Shown in pieces: positions 24,072 to 32,478 of a DNA stretch of 32,980 bases. The stretch's first letter is position 1. Each line of letters begins with the position of its first letter. Made by a program: the position numbers and the translations under genes. The DNA is from Pelagibacteraceae bacterium. GTDB lineage: Bacteria; Pseudomonadota; Alphaproteobacteria; Pelagibacterales; Pelagibacteraceae. The stretch covers positions 1 through 32,980 of the forward strand of contig VTPP01000014.1 in NCBI GenBank assembly GCA_008638225.1, read 5' to 3'. Under the pieces are notes generated by a model. The model was not told the DNA's origin. It worked only from the letters and a program-made list of their open reading frames with translations, and did no database searches.

Positions 24072-24479
24072 ATGTTGAAGAAAATATCTCTAGTTTTATT
24101 TCTCATTACATTATCTACTAGTGTTGCATTGGCAGAAACGATTACTCTTGCTAATCAAGGAACTTATGTTGGGGATGTGAAAGATGGAAAGCCCAATGGG
24201 CAGGGCACATTAACTTATCTAGATGGTGAGAAATATATTGGTCAATGGAAAGATGGTTACCGTGATGGAAAAGGAAAATTAACCTATATTGATGGTTCTG
24301 TGTATATTGGAGAATTTAAAGATAATAAAATCCACGGCCAAGGTGTGTTTACCTCCAAAAGTGGTTCAAGATATCAAGGGGAATATAAACACGGCAAAAT
24401 GGATGGCCAAGGAACGTATACGTACCCGAATGGAAAAAAAATAACCGGAACCTGGGTTAATGATAGTCCGGTCCAGTAA
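24072..24479 (+). CDS. Secreted MORN-repeat protein
   Basis: A 135-residue protein with a signal peptide (MLKKISLVLFLITLSTSVALA, cleavage at about residue 21) followed almost entirely by MORN repeats. Four to five repeats of about 23 residues can be aligned: GTYVGDVKDGKPNGQGTLTY, EKYIGQWKDGYRDGKGKLTY, SVYIGEFKDNKIHGQGVFTS, SRYQGEYKHGKMDGQGTYTY and the partial KKITGTWVNDSP. MORN repeats form a beta-sheet ribbon used in protein-protein or membrane contact. It lies 19 bases after livM with an AAAGG ribosome site, so it is probably the last gene of the transporter operon. A function in that operon is unknown; its stop is 14 bases from the stop of the convergent SCO gene. Confidence 0.85.
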   Translation: MLKKISLVLFLITLSTSVALAETITLANQGTYVGDVKDGKPNGQGTLTYLDGEKYIGQWKDGYRDGKGKLTYIDGSVYIGEFKDNKIHGQGVFTSKSGSRYQGEYKHGKMDGQGTYTYPNGKKITGTWVNDSPVQ

Positions 24480-24493
24480 TAAATTATTTACAA

Positions 24494-25099
24494 CTAATAA
24501 AGATTTTTAAGTTTAGCTAAAGCTACGTCAATCTTTTCATCATACGTGATAGTGCCAACTAAATTTGTATTTTTATCAATTAAAATTAAAGAAGAAGTAT
24601 GATCCATGGTGTAATTATTATTTTCTAAAGGAACTTTTTTTGCATAAATAGAATAGGATTTAATCAATATATCTAATTGTTTTGGATCTCCGGTTAGAGC
24701 TTTAATTGCAGGATGAAAAGAATTTAAATACTGTTTTAGTGCTTCTGGAGTATCTCGTTCTGGATCAACGCTTATAAAATAAAATTTTAATTTTTTACTA
24801 CTCTCACCTAGCTGACCAATTAATACTGATAAAGATTGCAAAGTAGTAGGGCAAACATCAGGACAATAAGTAAAACCAAAAAAAAGAACAGAAGGTGATC
24901 CGAGTATATCAGCCTTGGTTACTTTTTTATTATCTTGATCATATAATTCAAAATCAGAGGTAATAATAATATCTGCTACATTAGTATTTTGTGAGGTCTT
25001 GTTTTGATTACCGATGAATATGGATACAATAAATAAAATCAGCAACACCATAATTGGAACTATGATGTAGTAAATAATACCTCGGCGAAATGTATTCAT
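24494..25099 (-). CDS. SCO1/SenC/PrrC copper chaperone
   Basis: A 201-residue membrane-anchored thioredoxin-fold protein that delivers copper to, or reduces, the CuA site of cytochrome oxidase. One membrane helix (about residues 10-30) is followed by the periplasmic domain with the copper-binding FTYCPDVCPTTLQ motif (Cys79 and Cys83) and the distant ligand His165 in YTMDHTSSLILID. The intervening FYFISVDPERDTPEALKQYL is a family signature. It lies 15 bases downstream of the PCu(A)C gene in the same operon, the common pairing for CuA assembly. The oxidase genes themselves are not in the window. Confidence 0.94.
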   Translation of the reverse strand: MNTFRRGIIYYIIVPIMVLLILFIVSIFIGNQNKTSQNTNVADIIITSDFELYDQDNKKVTKADILGSPSVLFFGFTYCPDVCPTTLQSLSVLIGQLGESSKKLKFYFISVDPERDTPEALKQYLNSFHPAIKALTGDPKQLDILIKSYSIYAKKVPLENNNYTMDHTSSLILIDKNTNLVGTITYDEKIDVALAKLKNLY

Positions 25100-25114
25100 A
25101 TTAATTTTCTCGTC

Positions 25115-25585
25115 TTAATTTTTATGTTTTTCTTGATAATGACCTTTAGCTTCTTCTGTATCAAATTCAATTGTAATAGAGCCCGATTGTTCAAAGTTAA
25201 GTGATGCTTTATATTTTTTGTTTTTAACGATTGGCTCTGTAAGACCCATAAACATAATATGGTATGAACCAGATTTTAATTGAACTTTACTTTTAGCTGG
25301 TATGGTTAGACCTTGATTAAGTGGACGCATTTTCATGACATTATTATCCATAGTTGTTTCATGGATTTCTACTTGTTTTGCAAAAGATACATTAGTTACT
25401 GACAATAATTTATCAGGTTGATCTCCTTCATTTTCAATAGTCATAAATCCAGCACTGACATTAGTTCCGGTAGTTACTCTGATATAAAGATGATCTATTT
25501 CTAGTTTTCCAATTTTATATTCATGAGCAAGCACAGAACTAGAAATGGTTATTAGACTTAAGGTGATTAGTATTTTTTTAATCAT
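25115..25585 (-). CDS. PCu(A)C periplasmic copper chaperone
   Basis: A 156-residue periplasmic protein with a signal peptide (cleavage near residue 20, ..SSSVLA-HEYK) and one PCu(A)C (DUF461) domain. The Cu(I) ligands fit the family spacing: His75, Met86, His109 and Met111, in VEIHETTMDNNVMKMRP and SGSYHIMFMGL. It binds Cu(I) and hands it to the oxidase CuA centre together with the SCO protein encoded 15 bases downstream. The C-terminus is His/Lys/Glu rich (KGHYQEKHKN), which might bind further metal. It is the first gene of a two-gene minus-strand operon divergent from umuDC. Confidence 0.95.
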   Translation of the reverse strand: MIKKILITLSLITISSSVLAHEYKIGKLEIDHLYIRVTTGTNVSAGFMTIENEGDQPDKLLSVTNVSFAKQVEIHETTMDNNVMKMRPLNQGLTIPAKSKVQLKSGSYHIMFMGLTEPIVKNKKYKASLNFEQSGSITIEFDTEEAKGHYQEKHKN

Positions 25586-25773: not shown

Positions 25774-25788
25774 GAACAAAACAAGAAC
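25774..25788 (+). promoter_or_regulatory. Alphaproteobacterial LexA (SOS) box of umuDC
   Basis: GAAC-AAAACAA-GAAC, an exact match to the direct-repeat GAAC-N7-GAAC (GTTC-N7-GTTC on the other strand) operator of alphaproteobacterial LexA. It ends 9 bases before the umuD ATG and directly follows the -10 element. Site seen directly; regulator inferred. Confidence 0.8.
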
Positions 25789-25797
25789 ATTATATTT

Positions 25798-26175
25798 ATG
25801 AAAATACCACTCGTTATCCAAAAAGTTTCAGCAGGTTTTCCATCTCCCGCCACCGATTATGTGCAGGAAGAAATAGATTTAAATAGCGAGTTGATTAAAA
25901 ATGCTCCTGCAACTTTTGTCATTAGAGTGCAGGGCAATTCCATGAACGATCATAAAATTGCAAATGGCGATTTATTAGTAGTGGATAGAAGTTTAGGTCT
26001 TAGTAATGACTGCATTGCCATTGTTAATTTTAATAATGAGCTAGTGGTTAAAAATATTATAAAAAAAAATAATCATTTTTATATTAAGCACGCTGATGAA
26101 TACATCCCGATCACGGAACATTCTGATATTAATGTGTGGGGGATTGTAACTTACATTATTCATGCAACCCATTAA
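25798..26175 (+). CDS. umuD: DNA polymerase V subunit UmuD (self-cleaving)
   Basis: A 125-residue LexA-like peptidase-fold subunit of the translesion polymerase. Residues align with E. coli UmuD at a constant offset of 12: cleavage site Ala12-Gly13 in SAGFPSPATDYV (Cys24-Gly25 in E. coli), catalytic Ser48 in QGNSMND (Ser60) and Lys85 in LVVKNI (Lys97). RecA-stimulated self-cleavage to UmuD' is therefore expected, with Ala instead of Cys before the scissile bond. The ATG at 25798 is chosen because a further upstream TTG start would run through the promoter and the LexA box. The 3' end overlaps umuC by 14 bases. Confidence 0.95.
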   Translation: MKIPLVIQKVSAGFPSPATDYVQEEIDLNSELIKNAPATFVIRVQGNSMNDHKIANGDLLVVDRSLGLSNDCIAIVNFNNELVVKNIIKKNNHFYIKHADEYIPITEHSDINVWGIVTYIIHATH

Positions 26176-27442
26176 CAAACGTATTATCGCTCTTGTTGAT
26201 TGTAATTCTTTTTATGTTTCTTGTGAGCGTTTATTCAGACCAGATCTAGCAAAAAGACCAGTCGTCGTATTATCTAACAATGATGGTTGTATCATTTCAA
26301 GATCCACAGAGGCTAAACAGGTGGGAATTAAAATGGGCGAGCCTTATTTTAAAGCAAAGCCATTAATAGATAAATATAAAGTAGCAGTTTTTTCTTCTAA
26401 CTATGAACTGTATGGAGATCTCTCACGCAGGGTCATGAAAATCTTAAAGAACTTTTCATCCGATATTGAATTTTATTCTATCGATGAAGCTTTTCTGGAC
26501 CTTACGCATATTACAATGAAGAATGTGGAAGATTATATTTCCAACATTAGAAAAACTATTCTGCAATGGACAGGTATCCCCGTATCCATTGGTGCAGCTA
26601 ATACCAAAACCTTAGCCAAGGTTGCTAATCATATTGCAAAGAAAAAGAAGATGGGAATTGAAGAATTTATTTCTAAAGAGCAGAATTATATTGATCAAGA
26701 GTTAAAAGAGTTTCCGGTAGCAGAGGTTTGGGGTATAGGCAGACAGCTCTCTGCTTTCTTTCATAACAATCATTTTCATAATACTTACCAATTAAAAAAT
26801 GCTGATAATTATTGGGTGAGAAAAAATAGTAGTGTGGTTGTGTTGAAAACAATTCATGAATTACAAGGTATATGTTGCTTCCCACTAAATTACACACCCA
26901 CCGTTAGAAAAAATTGTTGTGTTTCCAGATCCTTTGGAACATCGATTACAGATATCTATGATCTACAAGAAGCTCTGGTTAATCATTGCATTACAGCAGC
27001 AGAACGTATTCGATCGGAGGGATTAATAGCGAAAACTATTTATGTCTTTATTAAAACAAGTAGATTCAAGAAGAATTATCTATCAAGGGTGGAGAAAATA
27101 GATATTCCCATGCCAACTAATAATACGCTTGAGCTTGTTGATTTAGCAGTCAAAGCTTTGGAGAATATTTATAGAAAAGGCCATTATTATAGTAAGGCCG
27201 GTGTATTATTGTCAGGATTACAGCCTAAAGCTCATTATGCAAATAATTTATTTTCGGATCTGAACCATAATTTAGATCATCTCATGAACATTATTGATCA
27301 AACTAATAATAAATTTGGCAGAGGATCGATTACCTTAGCTGCGGCCAGACACAACAATCAATTTAAGTTAAGACGCCAACACTCCTCTAAAATAGATACT
27401 TCTTTTATTCAAAGAGCACCCGTTGTTAAAGCTGGAATATGA
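26162..27442 (+). CDS. umuC: DNA polymerase V catalytic subunit UmuC
   Basis: A Y-family translesion DNA polymerase of 426 residues. The palm motifs are at the N-terminus: ALVDCNSFYVSCERLFRPDL (first metal Asp), VVLSNNDGCIISRSTEAK (finger) and FYSIDEAFLDLT (catalytic Asp-Glu). The helix-hairpin-helix thumb (VWGIGRQLSAF) and the little-finger region follow, and LLSGLQPKAHYANNLFSD contains a likely sliding-clamp-binding motif (ANNLF, cf. QLNLF in E. coli). Expression should be SOS-induced from the LexA-boxed promoter before umuD. The last codons overlap, on the other strand, the end of a truncated DUF2784 reading frame, so the extreme C-terminus (about nine residues) may have been shaped by that junction. 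Confidence 0.96.
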   Translation: MQPINKRIIALVDCNSFYVSCERLFRPDLAKRPVVVLSNNDGCIISRSTEAKQVGIKMGEPYFKAKPLIDKYKVAVFSSNYELYGDLSRRVMKILKNFSSDIEFYSIDEAFLDLTHITMKNVEDYISNIRKTILQWTGIPVSIGAANTKTLAKVANHIAKKKKMGIEEFISKEQNYIDQELKEFPVAEVWGIGRQLSAFFHNNHFHNTYQLKNADNYWVRKNSSVVVLKTIHELQGICCFPLNYTPTVRKNCCVSRSFGTSITDIYDLQEALVNHCITAAERIRSEGLIAKTIYVFIKTSRFKKNYLSRVEKIDIPMPTNNTLELVDLAVKALENIYRKGHYYSKAGVLLSGLQPKAHYANNLFSDLNHNLDHLMNIIDQTNNKFGRGSITLAAARHNNQFKLRRQHSSKIDTSFIQRAPVVKAGI

Positions 27443-27567: not shown

Positions 27568-29172
27568 TTATTCATTGGTATTAAGCTTTGATCGTTGAAT
27601 AATCCAAACAGTAAGAGTAGGGATTGTTAAAGTTAATAAGGTGACAATAATAAGAACCGTTCCAAGTTCTGAATAGTCAGCAGTTGATTGAATAACTCCC
27701 GTAACTTTATCTTTAACTTCTCTGCTAATGGTGAAAATCTGATTAAGATATTTAGTACCTAAGGCATTGGCTGATAAGGCAAGATTAGTAAAGGAGGCGA
27801 ACACTGCAAAAAAAGTTGCCTTTAAGTGTGAGGGCGCATTTTTAGCAATCCAGGCTAAGAGCGGGATCATAGCTACTTGGCCGAGTGGAGATTCAAGCGC
27901 GGTATTAATAATCGCAATAAATCTTGCATCAACGATTCCACCAGTCAGGCTAGCCGTCCATTGATGAAGGCCGTAATACATTCCAACACTTGGCAAAAAT
28001 AAAATAGATCCGACAATAGATAAAACAACTACAATGGTTGCTATGGAATTTCTTGCCATAAAAGGTCTTAGAAAAATAATTCCAAGCAAAGTTAAAACAG
28101 AAGCAATCAACGACAAAGTTGATAAAAACTGCTCATCAAATTTTAAAACATCAATTTCAAACCAAGTTAATCCAGGTCCTGGTCCTGGCATAGCTCTAAA
28201 GATAAAAATAATAATAGCAGTGCCAACAATGGTTGAGCGAAGATTTTCTGGAATTTCTTTTAATAATTTACTCATTAAAAAAATGACGATGCACATTGAG
28301 CCGGTAAATACGATCTCCTGGGCAAGTGGTAGTTGGAGGGAGCCAATGGTTAGGGTGAATAAAACAAAGATTAATGATCCGCCTAAAATCCACCAATTGA
28401 CTTTAGTGATAGACATAGTTTGGGAAATTGTTTTATCTAGTTTTTTGAATAAGGCTTGTTGTTGTTTGTGTAAGTAGTAGGAAAAACAAACACCTAGTAT
28501 GGAAATACCAGGAATGATCAGAGCGTATAAATAAACAGATCCATATAAAGATACTTTTTCACTCTGGGCTAAGCCTTGCGTATTACTAAAAATAATAATG
28601 TTAGCAGCAGCAACTAAAATAGTGCCGGCGATAATTGCAAAACGTCCAAGCGTTTGCATCGTGGTATGCATTGCTTTGATTACTTCAGGAGAATAGTTTT
28701 TACCGTCCTTATCAAACTGCGGAACCGCCTCAACCGTCATAGCATCTGCCACCACATCTTGAATGACATAACCAACCGGGGAAAGTATAACGCTGATCAC
28801 AAACCATGTTTCAACAGATAACATCTCTGCCATAAATTTAGTGTGTATAATCAGGCCATACATAATGATAATGCTGGCAGCAATAAAACCAGCGCCTAAA
28901 AACACTAAATAATTTTTTCTTTTCCAAATTAAATCAACTAAATGTCCAAGTGGCATTTTTAATACCCAAGGTATTCCCGCCCAAAAACCAAGACCTGCGA
29001 GCAGGGCTGCAGATAAATTTAAGTAATCTTTTACAAAAAATGTGCCCACAATCCCGGTTAATCCAGAAACTCCAGCTGCCACATAAATCATGAGAGGTGG
29101 TATATAACTAATACGAAACTGCCGAGCTAAATCTACAAAAGGATCAATCAAGCATGAGTATAATCTTTTCAT
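27568..29172 (-). CDS. BT1/folate-biopterin-transporter-like MFS protein
   Basis: An integral membrane protein of 534 residues with about 12 or more hydrophobic segments. The N-terminal half matches the FBT (folate-biopterin transporter, BT1) branch of the major facilitator superfamily: PPLMIYVAAGVSGLTGIVGTFFVKDYLNLSAALLAGLGFWAGIPWVLKMPLGHLVD and, further on, VIQDVVADAMTVEAV, the conserved DVVADAM(x)VE motif. Plants, protozoa and cyanobacteria use such proteins for folate or pterin uptake; in Proteobacteria the substrate is generally unknown. The ATG at 29172 has no clear Shine-Dalgarno. Downstream on the same strand lies a truncated DUF2784 frame. Folate or pterin transport is inference from family only. 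Confidence 0.82.
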   Translation of the reverse strand: MKRLYSCLIDPFVDLARQFRISYIPPLMIYVAAGVSGLTGIVGTFFVKDYLNLSAALLAGLGFWAGIPWVLKMPLGHLVDLIWKRKNYLVFLGAGFIAASIIIMYGLIIHTKFMAEMLSVETWFVISVILSPVGYVIQDVVADAMTVEAVPQFDKDGKNYSPEVIKAMHTTMQTLGRFAIIAGTILVAAANIIIFSNTQGLAQSEKVSLYGSVYLYALIIPGISILGVCFSYYLHKQQQALFKKLDKTISQTMSITKVNWWILGGSLIFVLFTLTIGSLQLPLAQEIVFTGSMCIVIFLMSKLLKEIPENLRSTIVGTAIIIFIFRAMPGPGPGLTWFEIDVLKFDEQFLSTLSLIASVLTLLGIIFLRPFMARNSIATIVVVLSIVGSILFLPSVGMYYGLHQWTASLTGGIVDARFIAIINTALESPLGQVAMIPLLAWIAKNAPSHLKATFFAVFASFTNLALSANALGTKYLNQIFTISREVKDKVTGVIQSTADYSELGTVLIIVTLLTLTIPTLTVWIIQRSKLNTNE

Positions 29173-29335: not shown

Positions 29336-29350
29336 GAACAAGTTTCGAAC
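29336..29350 (+). promoter_or_regulatory. Second LexA-type SOS box, upstream of the ATP-grasp/HDAC/photolyase-like operon
   Basis: GAAC-AAGTTTC-GAAC, an exact GAAC-N7-GAAC match, in the 281-bp intergenic region before the operon starting at 29454. A TTGGCT just upstream (29330-29335) could be a -35 element with the box in the spacer and TAGTAT at 29356-29361 as a poorly spaced -10. The motif is seen; control by LexA is inference, and the box is 103 bases from the start codon. Confidence 0.5.
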
Positions 29351-29453: not shown

Positions 29454-30389
29454 ATGAAAGTTCACATCATTCACGAAAACGAGGAATGGACTCGTCCCTT
29501 AATTGCAGCTTTAGAGCAGTTGCAAGTACCCTTTGTTGATTGGCATGTGGAACAGGCGAGTATTGATCTAGGCACAGCCCCGCCTCAAGGAATTTTTTAT
29601 AATAGAATGAGCGCTAGTTCTCACGCCAGAGGTCACCGCTTTGCACCAGAATATACCGCAACTATTTTACATTGGTTAGAGTCGCATCAACGACGAGTAA
29701 TTAATAACAGCAATGCCTTAGCGTTAGAAATTAGTAAATCATTACAATATGCTCGTTTGCAGCAAGCAGGCATTACAACACCAAGATCAATATGTTGTAG
29801 TAGTCCAAAACAAATCATCGCTGCTGCAAAACATTTTAAAGAACCATTTATCATTAAGCATAATAGGGCAGGTCGTGGTTTGGGCGTGAAATTATTCAAC
29901 AATCAAGCAGAATTAGAAAAACATGTGCACAGTTCATCTTTTGAAAACTCAGTGGATGGAATTACTATTCTCCAAGAATATATCGAGGCTAATCCAAAAG
30001 TCATCCACCGTTTAGAATTTATTAATTCCCAATTTTTTTATGCAGTGCAAGTTGATGCAAGCGATTCTTTTGAATTATGTCCGGCGGATGCTTGCAACAT
30101 TGAAGAACAATTTTGTCCAACCAATCCTGATGGTAATAAATTTATGATTATTCAGCAGTATCAGAATGCTAGTATAGAAAAATATAAGAAGTTTTTAAAG
30201 GACAACCATATTGAAATTGCTGGCATCGAATACATTACCGCAAAGGATGGTACGCATTACACGTATGATGTTAATACCAATACTAATTATAATTCAGTTG
30301 CTGAACAAAAAGCAGGTTTATTTGGTATGAAACAGATTGCTCTTTTTCTACAACAAGAGTTGCATGCAGTGTATGGTTCCCATCGTTAA
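29454..30389 (+). CDS. RimK-like ATP-grasp ligase
   Basis: A 311-residue ATP-grasp enzyme, predicted to join a carboxylate to an amine through an acylphosphate using ATP. The N-terminal Rossmann-like part (1-85) is followed by the ATP-grasp fold. Lys135 lies in FIIKHNRAGRGLGVKL with the glycine-rich loop at 140-145, Glu175 is in ILQEYIEA, and the Mg-binding DVNTNTNYN holds Asp272, Asn274 and Asn276. It is closest in layout to RimK/glutathione-synthase-type ligases that add amino acids to small molecules or proteins, but the substrates cannot be told. It is the first gene of a tightly overlapping operon with an HDAC-fold deacetylase and a photolyase-like protein. No Shine-Dalgarno precedes the ATG; a poly-A stretch does. 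Confidence 0.85.
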   Translation: MKVHIIHENEEWTRPLIAALEQLQVPFVDWHVEQASIDLGTAPPQGIFYNRMSASSHARGHRFAPEYTATILHWLESHQRRVINNSNALALEISKSLQYARLQQAGITTPRSICCSSPKQIIAAAKHFKEPFIIKHNRAGRGLGVKLFNNQAELEKHVHSSSFENSVDGITILQEYIEANPKVIHRLEFINSQFFYAVQVDASDSFELCPADACNIEEQFCPTNPDGNKFMIIQQYQNASIEKYKKFLKDNHIEIAGIEYITAKDGTHYTYDVNTNTNYNSVAEQKAGLFGMKQIALFLQQELHAVYGSHR

Positions 30390-31281
30390 TCACCCAGATT
30401 ACGTTGCGCAAATAGGGGATGATCATCGCTTTCCCATTCATAAATTTGGCGCTTTGTTTCAATTACTCCAGCAAGATAAGATTATCAAAAAAGATAATTT
30501 ATTTATTCCAGAACCAGTCTCGCATGCAGATTTATTAAGAGTACATAAGGCAGAATATATTGAAAAAATAGATAACTTATCCTTATCTAAAGAAGAAGAG
30601 CGCAAACTTGGATTCCCGATGGTGCCAAGTGTCAAACGTAGGTCGTATATGGCAACTGGCGGTACTGTATTAGCCGCACGTTTAGCTTTGCAATATCAAT
30701 TGGCTTGTAATACTGCAGGTGGCTCGCATCATGCCTTTGCAGATTCTGGTAATGGTTACTGTGTATTTAATGATGTGGCGGTTGCTGCCCATAGTTTACT
30801 CGCACAAAAGTTAGTTCGGCGTATTTTAATTTATGATCTTGATGTTCATCAAGGTGATGGCACCGCAGAAATTTTTAAAAACCATCCGCAAGTATACACG
30901 TGTAGCATTCATGCTAAAAAAAATTATCCAGCAAAAAAACAACAAAGTAATCAAGATATTGAGCTTGAGGAGCATTTACAGGATGAGGAGTATTTAGATA
31001 TTGTTGAAGATAGTTTGCAGAAATTGAGCAAACAGTCCTTTGATTTTGTATTTTATGTAGCAGGCGTTGATGTACATGAAGATGATAAGTTAGGTGCTTT
31101 AAATATCACAACCAATGGTATCATAAAAAGAGAGCAAATGGTCTTGTCGCACTTTTATCAACGTAAGATCCCAGTATGCGGAGTATTAGGGGGTGGATAT
31201 AATAAAAGTTTTGAACATTTAGTGTATCTACATTCTATCTTGCATCGCACGTGTCATCATTTAATTCATCATGGAACTTAG
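30364..31281 (+). CDS. Histone-deacetylase-family amidohydrolase
   Basis: A zinc-dependent deacetylase-fold enzyme of about 305 residues (class I-like bacterial group with AcuC and acetylpolyamine amidohydrolases). All active-site elements are present: the paired histidines in GGSHHAFADSGNGYCVFND, zinc ligands in YDLDVHQGDGT (Asp and His) and in AGVDVHEDDKLGAL (Asp), and the transition-state Tyr in VLGGGYNKS. It should remove acetyl or other acyl groups from a small amine or from lysine. The start is uncertain: 30364 is 4 bases after AAGAG, while ATG 30373 gives the family-typical beginning VPIVNHPDY. Either way it overlaps the end of the ATP-grasp gene. The C-terminus overlaps the next gene by 11 bases. 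Confidence 0.9.
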   Translation: MQCMVPIVNHPDYVAQIGDDHRFPIHKFGALFQLLQQDKIIKKDNLFIPEPVSHADLLRVHKAEYIEKIDNLSLSKEEERKLGFPMVPSVKRRSYMATGGTVLAARLALQYQLACNTAGGSHHAFADSGNGYCVFNDVAVAAHSLLAQKLVRRILIYDLDVHQGDGTAEIFKNHPQVYTCSIHAKKNYPAKKQQSNQDIELEEHLQDEEYLDIVEDSLQKLSKQSFDFVFYVAGVDVHEDDKLGALNITTNGIIKREQMVLSHFYQRKIPVCGVLGGGYNKSFEHLVYLHSILHRTCHHLIHHGT

Positions 31282-32431
31282 AGAAGAAGCCCTAAAACAG
31301 TTACAGCAATTTAGTGAGCAACATCTTGCATCTTATGCTGCCAAACGTAACTTTGATTATGGGCCAAAGATGCGAACTAATACTAGCGTTTTATCTAAGT
31401 ATATCAGCCACCGCATCATTGATGAGCTAACGGTACTGCGATCTGCTTATGGCACATATCCTTTTGCCCGAATTGAAAAATTTATTCAGGAAATAATGTG
31501 GAGAACTTATTGGAAAGGTTGGCTTGAGCAGAGACCTCAGGTTTGGCAGGATTATGTAACCGACTTAACTAAGCTCCAGTCACAAACACAATCGGAGCAA
31601 TACCAACAAGCCATTCAAGCTGCCACATCTATTCCTTGTTTTAATGATTGGGTCAAAGAATTACAAACTCATGGTTATTTGCACAATCATGCAAGAATGT
31701 GGTTTGCTAGTATCTGGATTTTTACCTTACAGTTACCTTGGCAACTAGGAGCAGATTTTTTTTTAAAACATTTACTGGATGGTGATGCGGCAGCAAATAC
31801 TTTAAGTTGGCGCTGGGTAGCGGGGTTACATACTAAGGGCAAGCATTATCTTGCAACAACAAAAAACATTAATCTATTTTCAGGCACAACTTATTCCAAT
31901 CTTCATCTTAATGAAACAGCCATGCCTTGCACCGAACAAAAACAATATCCAATCACTCCATTATCTTTTGCCAGTCCTAATTATGATAATGCCTTATGCT
32001 TATTTCATTATTTAGACTGTTCTTTTGCCGAGCAATCTCCCTTCGTCAGCAAATCTATGCAAGTTGCAGTCTTAGATTGTGTGTCGCATCTACACTCTTT
32101 GCAGTTCGCTAGTCCCGTTTTAGATTTTAAACAAAAAATACAATCTCAATTACAGCAACATCTTGCAACTACACTCAGTAGAGATGTGCCAAGCATAAGC
32201 AGGGAGCAATTAGAAAATTTTGTAAAAAAAAATAATATTACAAAAATAATAATGCCGTATCTAACCACTGGTTATGAACATGATTTGGTTGAAAAGATAA
32301 AAAAAGAAATGAAAGAAGTAACAATTGAGTATGCGGTTCGTGATTATGATAAGTATTGCTGGCCCTTTGCTAGCAAAGGTTTTTTTGCTTTTAAAGATCA
32401 GATCCCAGGGATCATTGCCAAATTTATGTAA
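31271..32431 (+). CDS. Photolyase/cryptochrome-like flavoprotein with apparently permuted domains
   Basis: A 386-residue protein whose first about 205 residues match the C-terminal FAD-binding helical domain of DNA photolyases. Key marks: YAAKRNF, NTSVLSKYISHR (Thr38/Ser39/Ser42, flavin phosphate contact), IMWRTYWKGWLEQRP, HNHARMW (Asn139, Arg142), Trp157, and LLDGDAAANTLSWRWVAG with Asn176 (flavin N5-side Asn of E. coli PhrB, Asn378) and Trp180 (Trp382). The usual N-terminal alpha/beta domain is absent; instead the C-terminal 150 residues (240-386) resemble it, with strands ALCLFHYLDCS and QVAVLD and a segment NNITKIIMPYLTTGYEHDLVEKI like that domain's antenna-side region. It overlaps the deacetylase gene by 11 bases and ends before a strong terminator. 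Repair or light sensing is possible; the function is not known. Confidence 0.82.
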   Translation: MELREEALKQLQQFSEQHLASYAAKRNFDYGPKMRTNTSVLSKYISHRIIDELTVLRSAYGTYPFARIEKFIQEIMWRTYWKGWLEQRPQVWQDYVTDLTKLQSQTQSEQYQQAIQAATSIPCFNDWVKELQTHGYLHNHARMWFASIWIFTLQLPWQLGADFFLKHLLDGDAAANTLSWRWVAGLHTKGKHYLATTKNINLFSGTTYSNLHLNETAMPCTEQKQYPITPLSFASPNYDNALCLFHYLDCSFAEQSPFVSKSMQVAVLDCVSHLHSLQFASPVLDFKQKIQSQLQQHLATTLSRDVPSISREQLENFVKKNNITKIIMPYLTTGYEHDLVEKIKKEMKEVTIEYAVRDYDKYCWPFASKGFFAFKDQIPGIIAKFM

Positions 32432-32451: not shown

Positions 32452-32478
32452 AAACTAGGGCGCAAGGCGCCCTAGTTT
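32452..32478. terminator. Strong bidirectional intrinsic terminator
   Basis: AAACTAGGGCGC and GCGCCCTAGTTT form a perfect 12-bp stem with a 3-base AAG loop, between the convergent photolyase-like gene and the small secreted-protein gene. T-rich sequence follows in both directions (short on the plus strand), so it can end both transcripts. Confidence 0.85.

Follow-up and report, generated by a model that had tools for sequence, protein, structure and literature searches.

What are an ATP-grasp ligase, a histone deacetylase (HDAC)-fold amidohydrolase and a photolyase-like flavoprotein doing together in three overlapping genes of a Pelagibacteraceae bacterium? The genes lie in the window, a 32,980-nucleotide stretch that forms contig 37 in an assembly of 1.02 Mb and about 95% completeness, and a preliminary description of this DNA had read them as an undescribed pathway in which the ligase makes an amide, the deacylase trims it and the flavoprotein uses the product. 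We lean toward a different answer: on balance, the trio is probably a lineage-specific, modular cassette for DNA damage (ultraviolet (UV) and SOS), recently assembled around an already known class of photolyase, with the ligase and the HDAC-fold enzyme as likely accessory stress enzymes rather than obligate steps of one pathway.

Gene layout and the photolyase

The genes and the regulatory site in question are as follows.

29454..30389, plus strand: gene 1, RimK-like ATP-grasp ligase, 311 amino acids (Pfam/NCBIfam, family alignment, ratio of nonsynonymous to synonymous substitution rates (dN/dS))
30373..31281, plus strand: gene 2, putative clade-A class IV HDAC-fold amidohydrolase, 302 amino acids (Pfam, PDB relatives, zinc site, dN/dS)
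31271..31930, plus strand: gene 3, NewPHL-type photolyase, N-terminal flavin adenine dinucleotide (FAD)/catalytic domain, residues 1-220 (FAD_binding_7, VIA-align, residues of the cyclobutane pyrimidine dimer (CPD) site)
31934..32431, plus strand: gene 3, predicted C-terminal antenna-like alpha/beta domain, residues 222-386 (isolated-domain structural matches, hhalign)
29336..29350, no strand assigned: LexA (SOS) box of the trio, GAAC-N7-GAAC (exact match, 104-118 bp 5' of the ligase gene)

The three overlapping open reading frames (ORFs) reported earlier were confirmed. Between the ligase and HDAC genes the overlap is 17 bp, taking as the start the ATG at 30373, which is conserved in relatives; between the HDAC and photolyase genes it is 11 bp, stop codon included. 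Such overlaps could allow translational coupling. The nearest named relative, Pelagibacteraceae bacterium M30B8, encodes a photolyase 94% identical and a ligase and HDAC 97% identical to those of the window, and is followed by other Pelagibacterales, lake records included. Measured against M30B8, dN/dS is 0.04 for the ligase, 0.05 for the HDAC and 0.14 for the photolyase, indicating that all three genes are under purifying selection.

Sequence searches of Pfam and the PDB detect the FAD domain alone in gene 3 (about residues 1-200; FAD_binding_7, 4.6e-19). In an AlphaFold model built from 64 relatives (predicted local distance difference test (pLDDT) 96, predicted template modelling score (pTM) 0.93), residues 1-225 align with the photolyase FAD domain (VIA-align, Z about 17). 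When residues 222-386 were modelled in isolation (pLDDT 92), their best structural matches by VIA-align were the N-terminal antenna domains of photolyases (4dja, residues 2-163: Z 9.6, root-mean-square deviation 3.7 over 142 residues); universal stress proteins (USPs) ranked closely behind. Profile comparison by hhalign against 17 class I antenna domains was collinear over 114 columns (P 3.3e-4), versus P 0.27 and 0.37 for two unrelated control profiles. The PhrB antenna profile gave no hhalign signal (P 0.08), though PhrB is the top structural match, and Foldseek with the C-terminal domain returned no match below E 0.001, its best rows being USP-like proteins, PPAT and cryptochromes; the domain call therefore rests on the VIA-align Z scores of 8-9.6 and on hhalign with the class I antenna. 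This antenna-domain likeness implies that the domain order of gene 3 is reversed, with the modelled FAD domain first and the antenna-like domain last. On the isolated C-terminal model and the structural search, an antenna-less, truncated photolyase was rejected.

The FAD-site residues are invariant among relatives, and so, in 64 of 64, are the CPD-site residues (E74, W77, N139, M143 and W182) and the electron-transfer pair W180/W157; conservation does not extend to the third tryptophan of the classical triad. The family alignment holds no well conserved cysteine, the best column reaching 75%. These are features of the NewPHL/Phr7 class (Emmerich et al. 2020; Xu et al. 2021; PMC9426592, PMC13274461, PMC8948257, PMC9178010, PMC9649867), for which citing papers give a reversed domain order, a tryptophan dyad (in the Dinoroseobacter NewPHL; PMC8948257), absence of iron-sulfur (FeS) cluster cysteines (PMC9426592), CPD-site residues and activity on single-stranded DNA. 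Reversed domain order, already described in the literature, was dropped as a new feature, and gene 3 is assigned to the NewPHL type by the features described for the class rather than by sequence comparison with the original NewPHLs. The enzyme would most likely carry out light-driven repair of CPDs in single-stranded DNA.

The company that gene 3 keeps elsewhere is in line with repair. At 25 of 35 Pelagibacterales loci, and at 6 of 45 loci elsewhere, a second photolyase gene is found no more than 1.5 kb away, supporting a UV-repair role that needs neither the HDAC nor the ligase. Its roseobacter relatives are about 40% identical, and in three roseobacter loci (L104, L108, L122) three photolyase-family genes follow one another in the same direction, encoding a full photolyase, a NewPHL and a PhrB-type 6-4 photolyase.

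The LexA-type box and the SOS neighborhood

Upstream of the trio lies a second SOS operon, and the surrounding features are these.

25774..25788, no strand assigned: LexA box of the adjoining umuDC operon (exact match; kept in four relatives)
25798..27442, plus strand: umuD and umuC, adjoining SOS operon (ORFs, Peptidase_S24)
27568-29172, minus strand: BT1-family (folate/biopterin carrier) gene, between umuDC and the trio
32452..32478, no strand assigned: 12-pair hairpin, possible shared terminator (hairpin scan; separates the operon from a small convergent gene)

The box of the trio, GAACAAGTTTCGAAC at 29336-29350, is an exact match to the alphaproteobacterial LexA box, GTTC-N7-GTTC (PMC3323433). 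Two exact boxes occur in the window, against 0.5 expected by chance, and the other stands just 5' of umuD. SAR11 genomes examined carry lexA-like genes, and the motif precedes lexA in all six SAR11 loci with a readable upstream side, as well as umuD in four relatives. The candidate SOS box of the preliminary description has held up, its motif being validated by the lexA and umuD loci of relatives, and the suggestion there of light or damage control gains support from the box, from the NewPHL-type photolyase and from the position of the ligase gene in a sister genus. There (genus g133, three genomes), the ligase gene lies 54 bp behind umuC in the order lexA-gltX-umuD-umuC-ligase; the umuDC-ligase segments, each behind a conserved LexA box, span L206 4871-7481, L207 5529-8139 and L208 3890-6500. 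In the proposed mechanism, UV damage would leave single-stranded gaps at which RecA triggers LexA cleavage, and the cassette would then be derepressed together with umuDC.

Several observations weigh against this reading. The LexA pattern is not over-represented genome-wide, with 13 matches versus 23 for a reversed control, although ORFs contain at least 10 of the 11 other genome matches. The box of the trio has diverged in M30B8 despite about 90% identity of the flanking DNA, so that the trio would have either come under SOS control recently or recently escaped it, and no LexA box precedes the HDAC-photolyase pairs of other relatives. Lastly, the NewPHL identity of gene 3 was reached through features given in citing papers rather than through comparison with the original sequences (Dinoroseobacter shibae/Methylobacterium).

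At the other end of the operon, the hairpin that had been taken for a shared terminator is present, but a good T-run on the plus strand is absent, so a terminator can be proposed only tentatively. The locus gave no Rfam match to an RNA element. Ahead of umuDC, 24072-24479 (plus strand) encodes a short MORN-repeat protein whose N-terminus is signal-like; this gene lies upstream of two SCO1/PCuAC-like copper genes (24494-25585, minus strand).

The HDAC-fold enzyme and the ligase

Gene 2 (Hist_deacetyl, 8.5e-59) has its best PDB relatives in 9RJE (Chlamydomonas chrHDAC11-1/A) and 9GKV/9GKY (Vibrio cholerae VcHdaH). Over the whole length the E-value is 1.6e-69 for 9RJE (clade A), 1.8e-54 for VcHdaH and 5.6e-54 for the 9RJD/9GZ5 group (clade B), which places the enzyme, by pairwise similarity rather than by tree, in clade A of the class IV HDACs. 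Its zinc-site residues (H119/H120, D157, H159, D233 and Y276) are invariant among relatives. The gatekeeper Ser118 aligns with the threonine of 9RJE in the motif NTAGG(T/S)HHAF, and a threonine or serine at this foot-pocket position is the clade-A signature (PMC13325672); the foot-pocket Arg90 is likewise conserved and invariant, and the position of its glutamate partner in the clade-A salt bridge is occupied by Ala94. Clade-A enzymes form a group without known natural substrate (PMC13325672): they were inactive as deacylases on the acyl-peptides assayed, VcHdaH being a weak de-decanoylase (PMC11532494, PMC13325672). A genomic link between clade-A HDACs and photolyases goes unmentioned in PMC13325672 and PMC11532494, and the word photolyase does not occur in the former.

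Gene 1 scores around the gathering cut-off of the Pfam ATP-grasp/RimK families. Its score of 61.2 bits against TIGR00768 (RimK family alpha-L-glutamate ligase) falls below the curated cut-off of 143.4, so that by score it appears to be a RimK-like ATP-grasp ligase outside that family. The ATP-grasp residues are intact in the family alignment, with K135, D272 and N274 invariant among relatives; together with the zinc site of gene 2, this bears out the earlier observation that the catalytic residues of both proteins are intact. The ligase is rare in the phylum and patchy, being present in 9 of 61 relatives (a distant match in genome G298 excluded). On Pediococcus plasmids, a 45% identical "alpha-L-glutamate ligase" adjoins an amino-acid symporter. 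We also considered anti-phage defense and a viral origin, and rejected both: PADLOC gave no match, and viral_contigs held no relative of the ligase or photolyase.

Competing explanations and known systems

How the three genes are distributed bears on all explanations. The preliminary description had named scattering of the genes in most relatives as evidence against its pathway, and scattering is what a gene-neighborhood survey found: the contiguous trio occurs in 2 of 61 relatives, its order being limited to this genome and one close relative, and all three genes are present together in 4 of 37 same-family genomes. Within that family the co-occurrence of the ligase with the other two genes is not significant (P 0.34 and 0.55), whereas 16 of the 17 genomes with this HDAC also carry the photolyase (P 2e-4), and in the class outside the family the two are shared by 6 genomes versus about 2 expected (P 0.011), all of these P values ignoring ancestry. 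Outside two genomes the genes are scattered, and for that reason we rejected the three-step small-molecule pathway as the main explanation. A variant would have the photolyase antenna cofactor (a folate, for instance, which photolyases can use as an antenna) enter through the BT1 carrier, receive glutamate from the ligase and be cut back by the amidohydrolase. The adjacency and overlap of the genes would suit either version, as would the annotation of ligase relatives as alpha-L-glutamate ligases and the BT1 gene next door. A BT1 gene 82% identical to that copy adjoins the HDAC-photolyase pair in genome G258 (contig L203), and another, 66% identical, lies 3.4 kb from the gene 3 counterpart in a SAR116 contig (L087). 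Set against this are the independent occurrence of the ligase and the hundreds of genomes in which the photolyase works with neither partner nearby; taken together, the two versions are very improbable. Gene 3, moreover, belongs to a repair-enzyme class already described.

The HDAC and photolyase are the only pair with both a statistical and a positional link, and this older link is the most interesting part of the locus. The pair is found in five genomes of the genus of the window, G253 among them, in one genome of a second genus (G258) and in contig L046, and wherever it could be read, across two genera with photolyases 54-58% identical, the 11-nt overlap is the same. In the unrelated alphaproteobacterium G024, an HDAC gene of the same kind stands 59 bp 5' of a class I photolyase gene (L285 5047-7438). 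The two could therefore be a module in which light-driven repair is tuned by the HDAC through deacylation of the photolyase, of its cofactor or of a partner bound to DNA, the ligase having joined by chance. We think this unlikely, given that many genomes carry either gene alone, that the other HDAC loci examined in Alpha- and Gammaproteobacteria have no photolyase neighbor, G024 excepted, and that ancestry is ignored in the statistics. In genome G253 (L212 5246-7289) the HDAC frame is broken and the overlapping NewPHL gene intact, suggesting that the photolyase there is independent of the HDAC, or an assembly error. Chance is a similarly doubtful explanation: three unrelated genes would have become neighbors in a compact genome (about 1 Mb), with overlaps produced by genome reduction and a fortuitous LexA-like box. 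The restriction of the trio to two close genomes, the divergence of the box in the nearest relative and the lack of ligase co-occurrence fit such streamlining, but the overlap kept at that photolyase divergence, the perfect match to a box motif that has been validated in this lineage and the independent tie of the ligase to umuDC do not. We prefer the damage cassette because the reversed domain order, the invariant CPD residues and tryptophan dyad and the absence of a conserved cysteine match NewPHL/Phr7 as published; because of the photolyase neighbors of gene 3, the LexA-type box and the ligase behind umuDC in the sister genus; and because all three genes are under purifying selection, with the trio in two genomes and its genes scattered elsewhere.

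SAR11 bacteria rank with the most abundant organisms in sunlit waters. If confirmed, an SOS-controlled photolyase for single-stranded DNA would join SOS repair and photorepair at the very sites of single-stranded gaps. A photolyase as partner further offers a positional lead to a substrate of clade-A HDACs, which occur in bacteria, algae and plastids. It is conceivable, though improbable, that clade-A class IV HDACs, which in phototrophic eukaryotes are targeted to plastids or mitochondria, work with photolyases by deacylating the photolyase, a cofactor or a DNA-bound partner; if so, deacylation and light-driven DNA repair would be directly linked in bacteria.

Each part of the cassette has its known counterparts. 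Gene 2 shares with the clade-A enzymes chrHDAC11-1/A (9RJE) and VcHdaH (9GKY) the highest whole-length similarity, the Thr/Ser gatekeeper and the foot-pocket arginine, but has alanine for the glutamate partner. With the RimK-like ligases (TIGR00768, LysX, CofF, MptN), gene 1 has the ATP-grasp core and metal-site residues in common, yet it scores far below every curated cut-off and carries its own conserved motif, FELCPADAC. The LexA-controlled umuDC operons of SAR11 have the same type of box; in g133 the ligase directly follows umuC, whereas here it has its own box and lies 2 kb downstream, past the opposite-strand BT1 gene. Short photolyase-like (SPL) proteins, listed together with NewPHL/Phr7, are described in two citing papers either as lacking an alpha/beta domain (PMC9649867) or as having an FeS cluster; neither fits gene 3, whose antenna-like alpha/beta domain is C-terminal. 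The phr-NewPHL-phrB clusters of roseobacters and marine SAR11 (L104, L108, L122, L048-L074) contain the same gene 3 in UV-repair surroundings, but no HDAC or ATP-grasp gene. Gene 3 resembles NewPHL/Phr7 in its N-terminal FAD domain, C-terminal antenna-like domain, tryptophan dyad, absence of FeS cysteines, CPD-site residues and roseobacter occurrence; unlike those enzymes, it lies here in an operon behind a LexA box and the ligase and HDAC genes.
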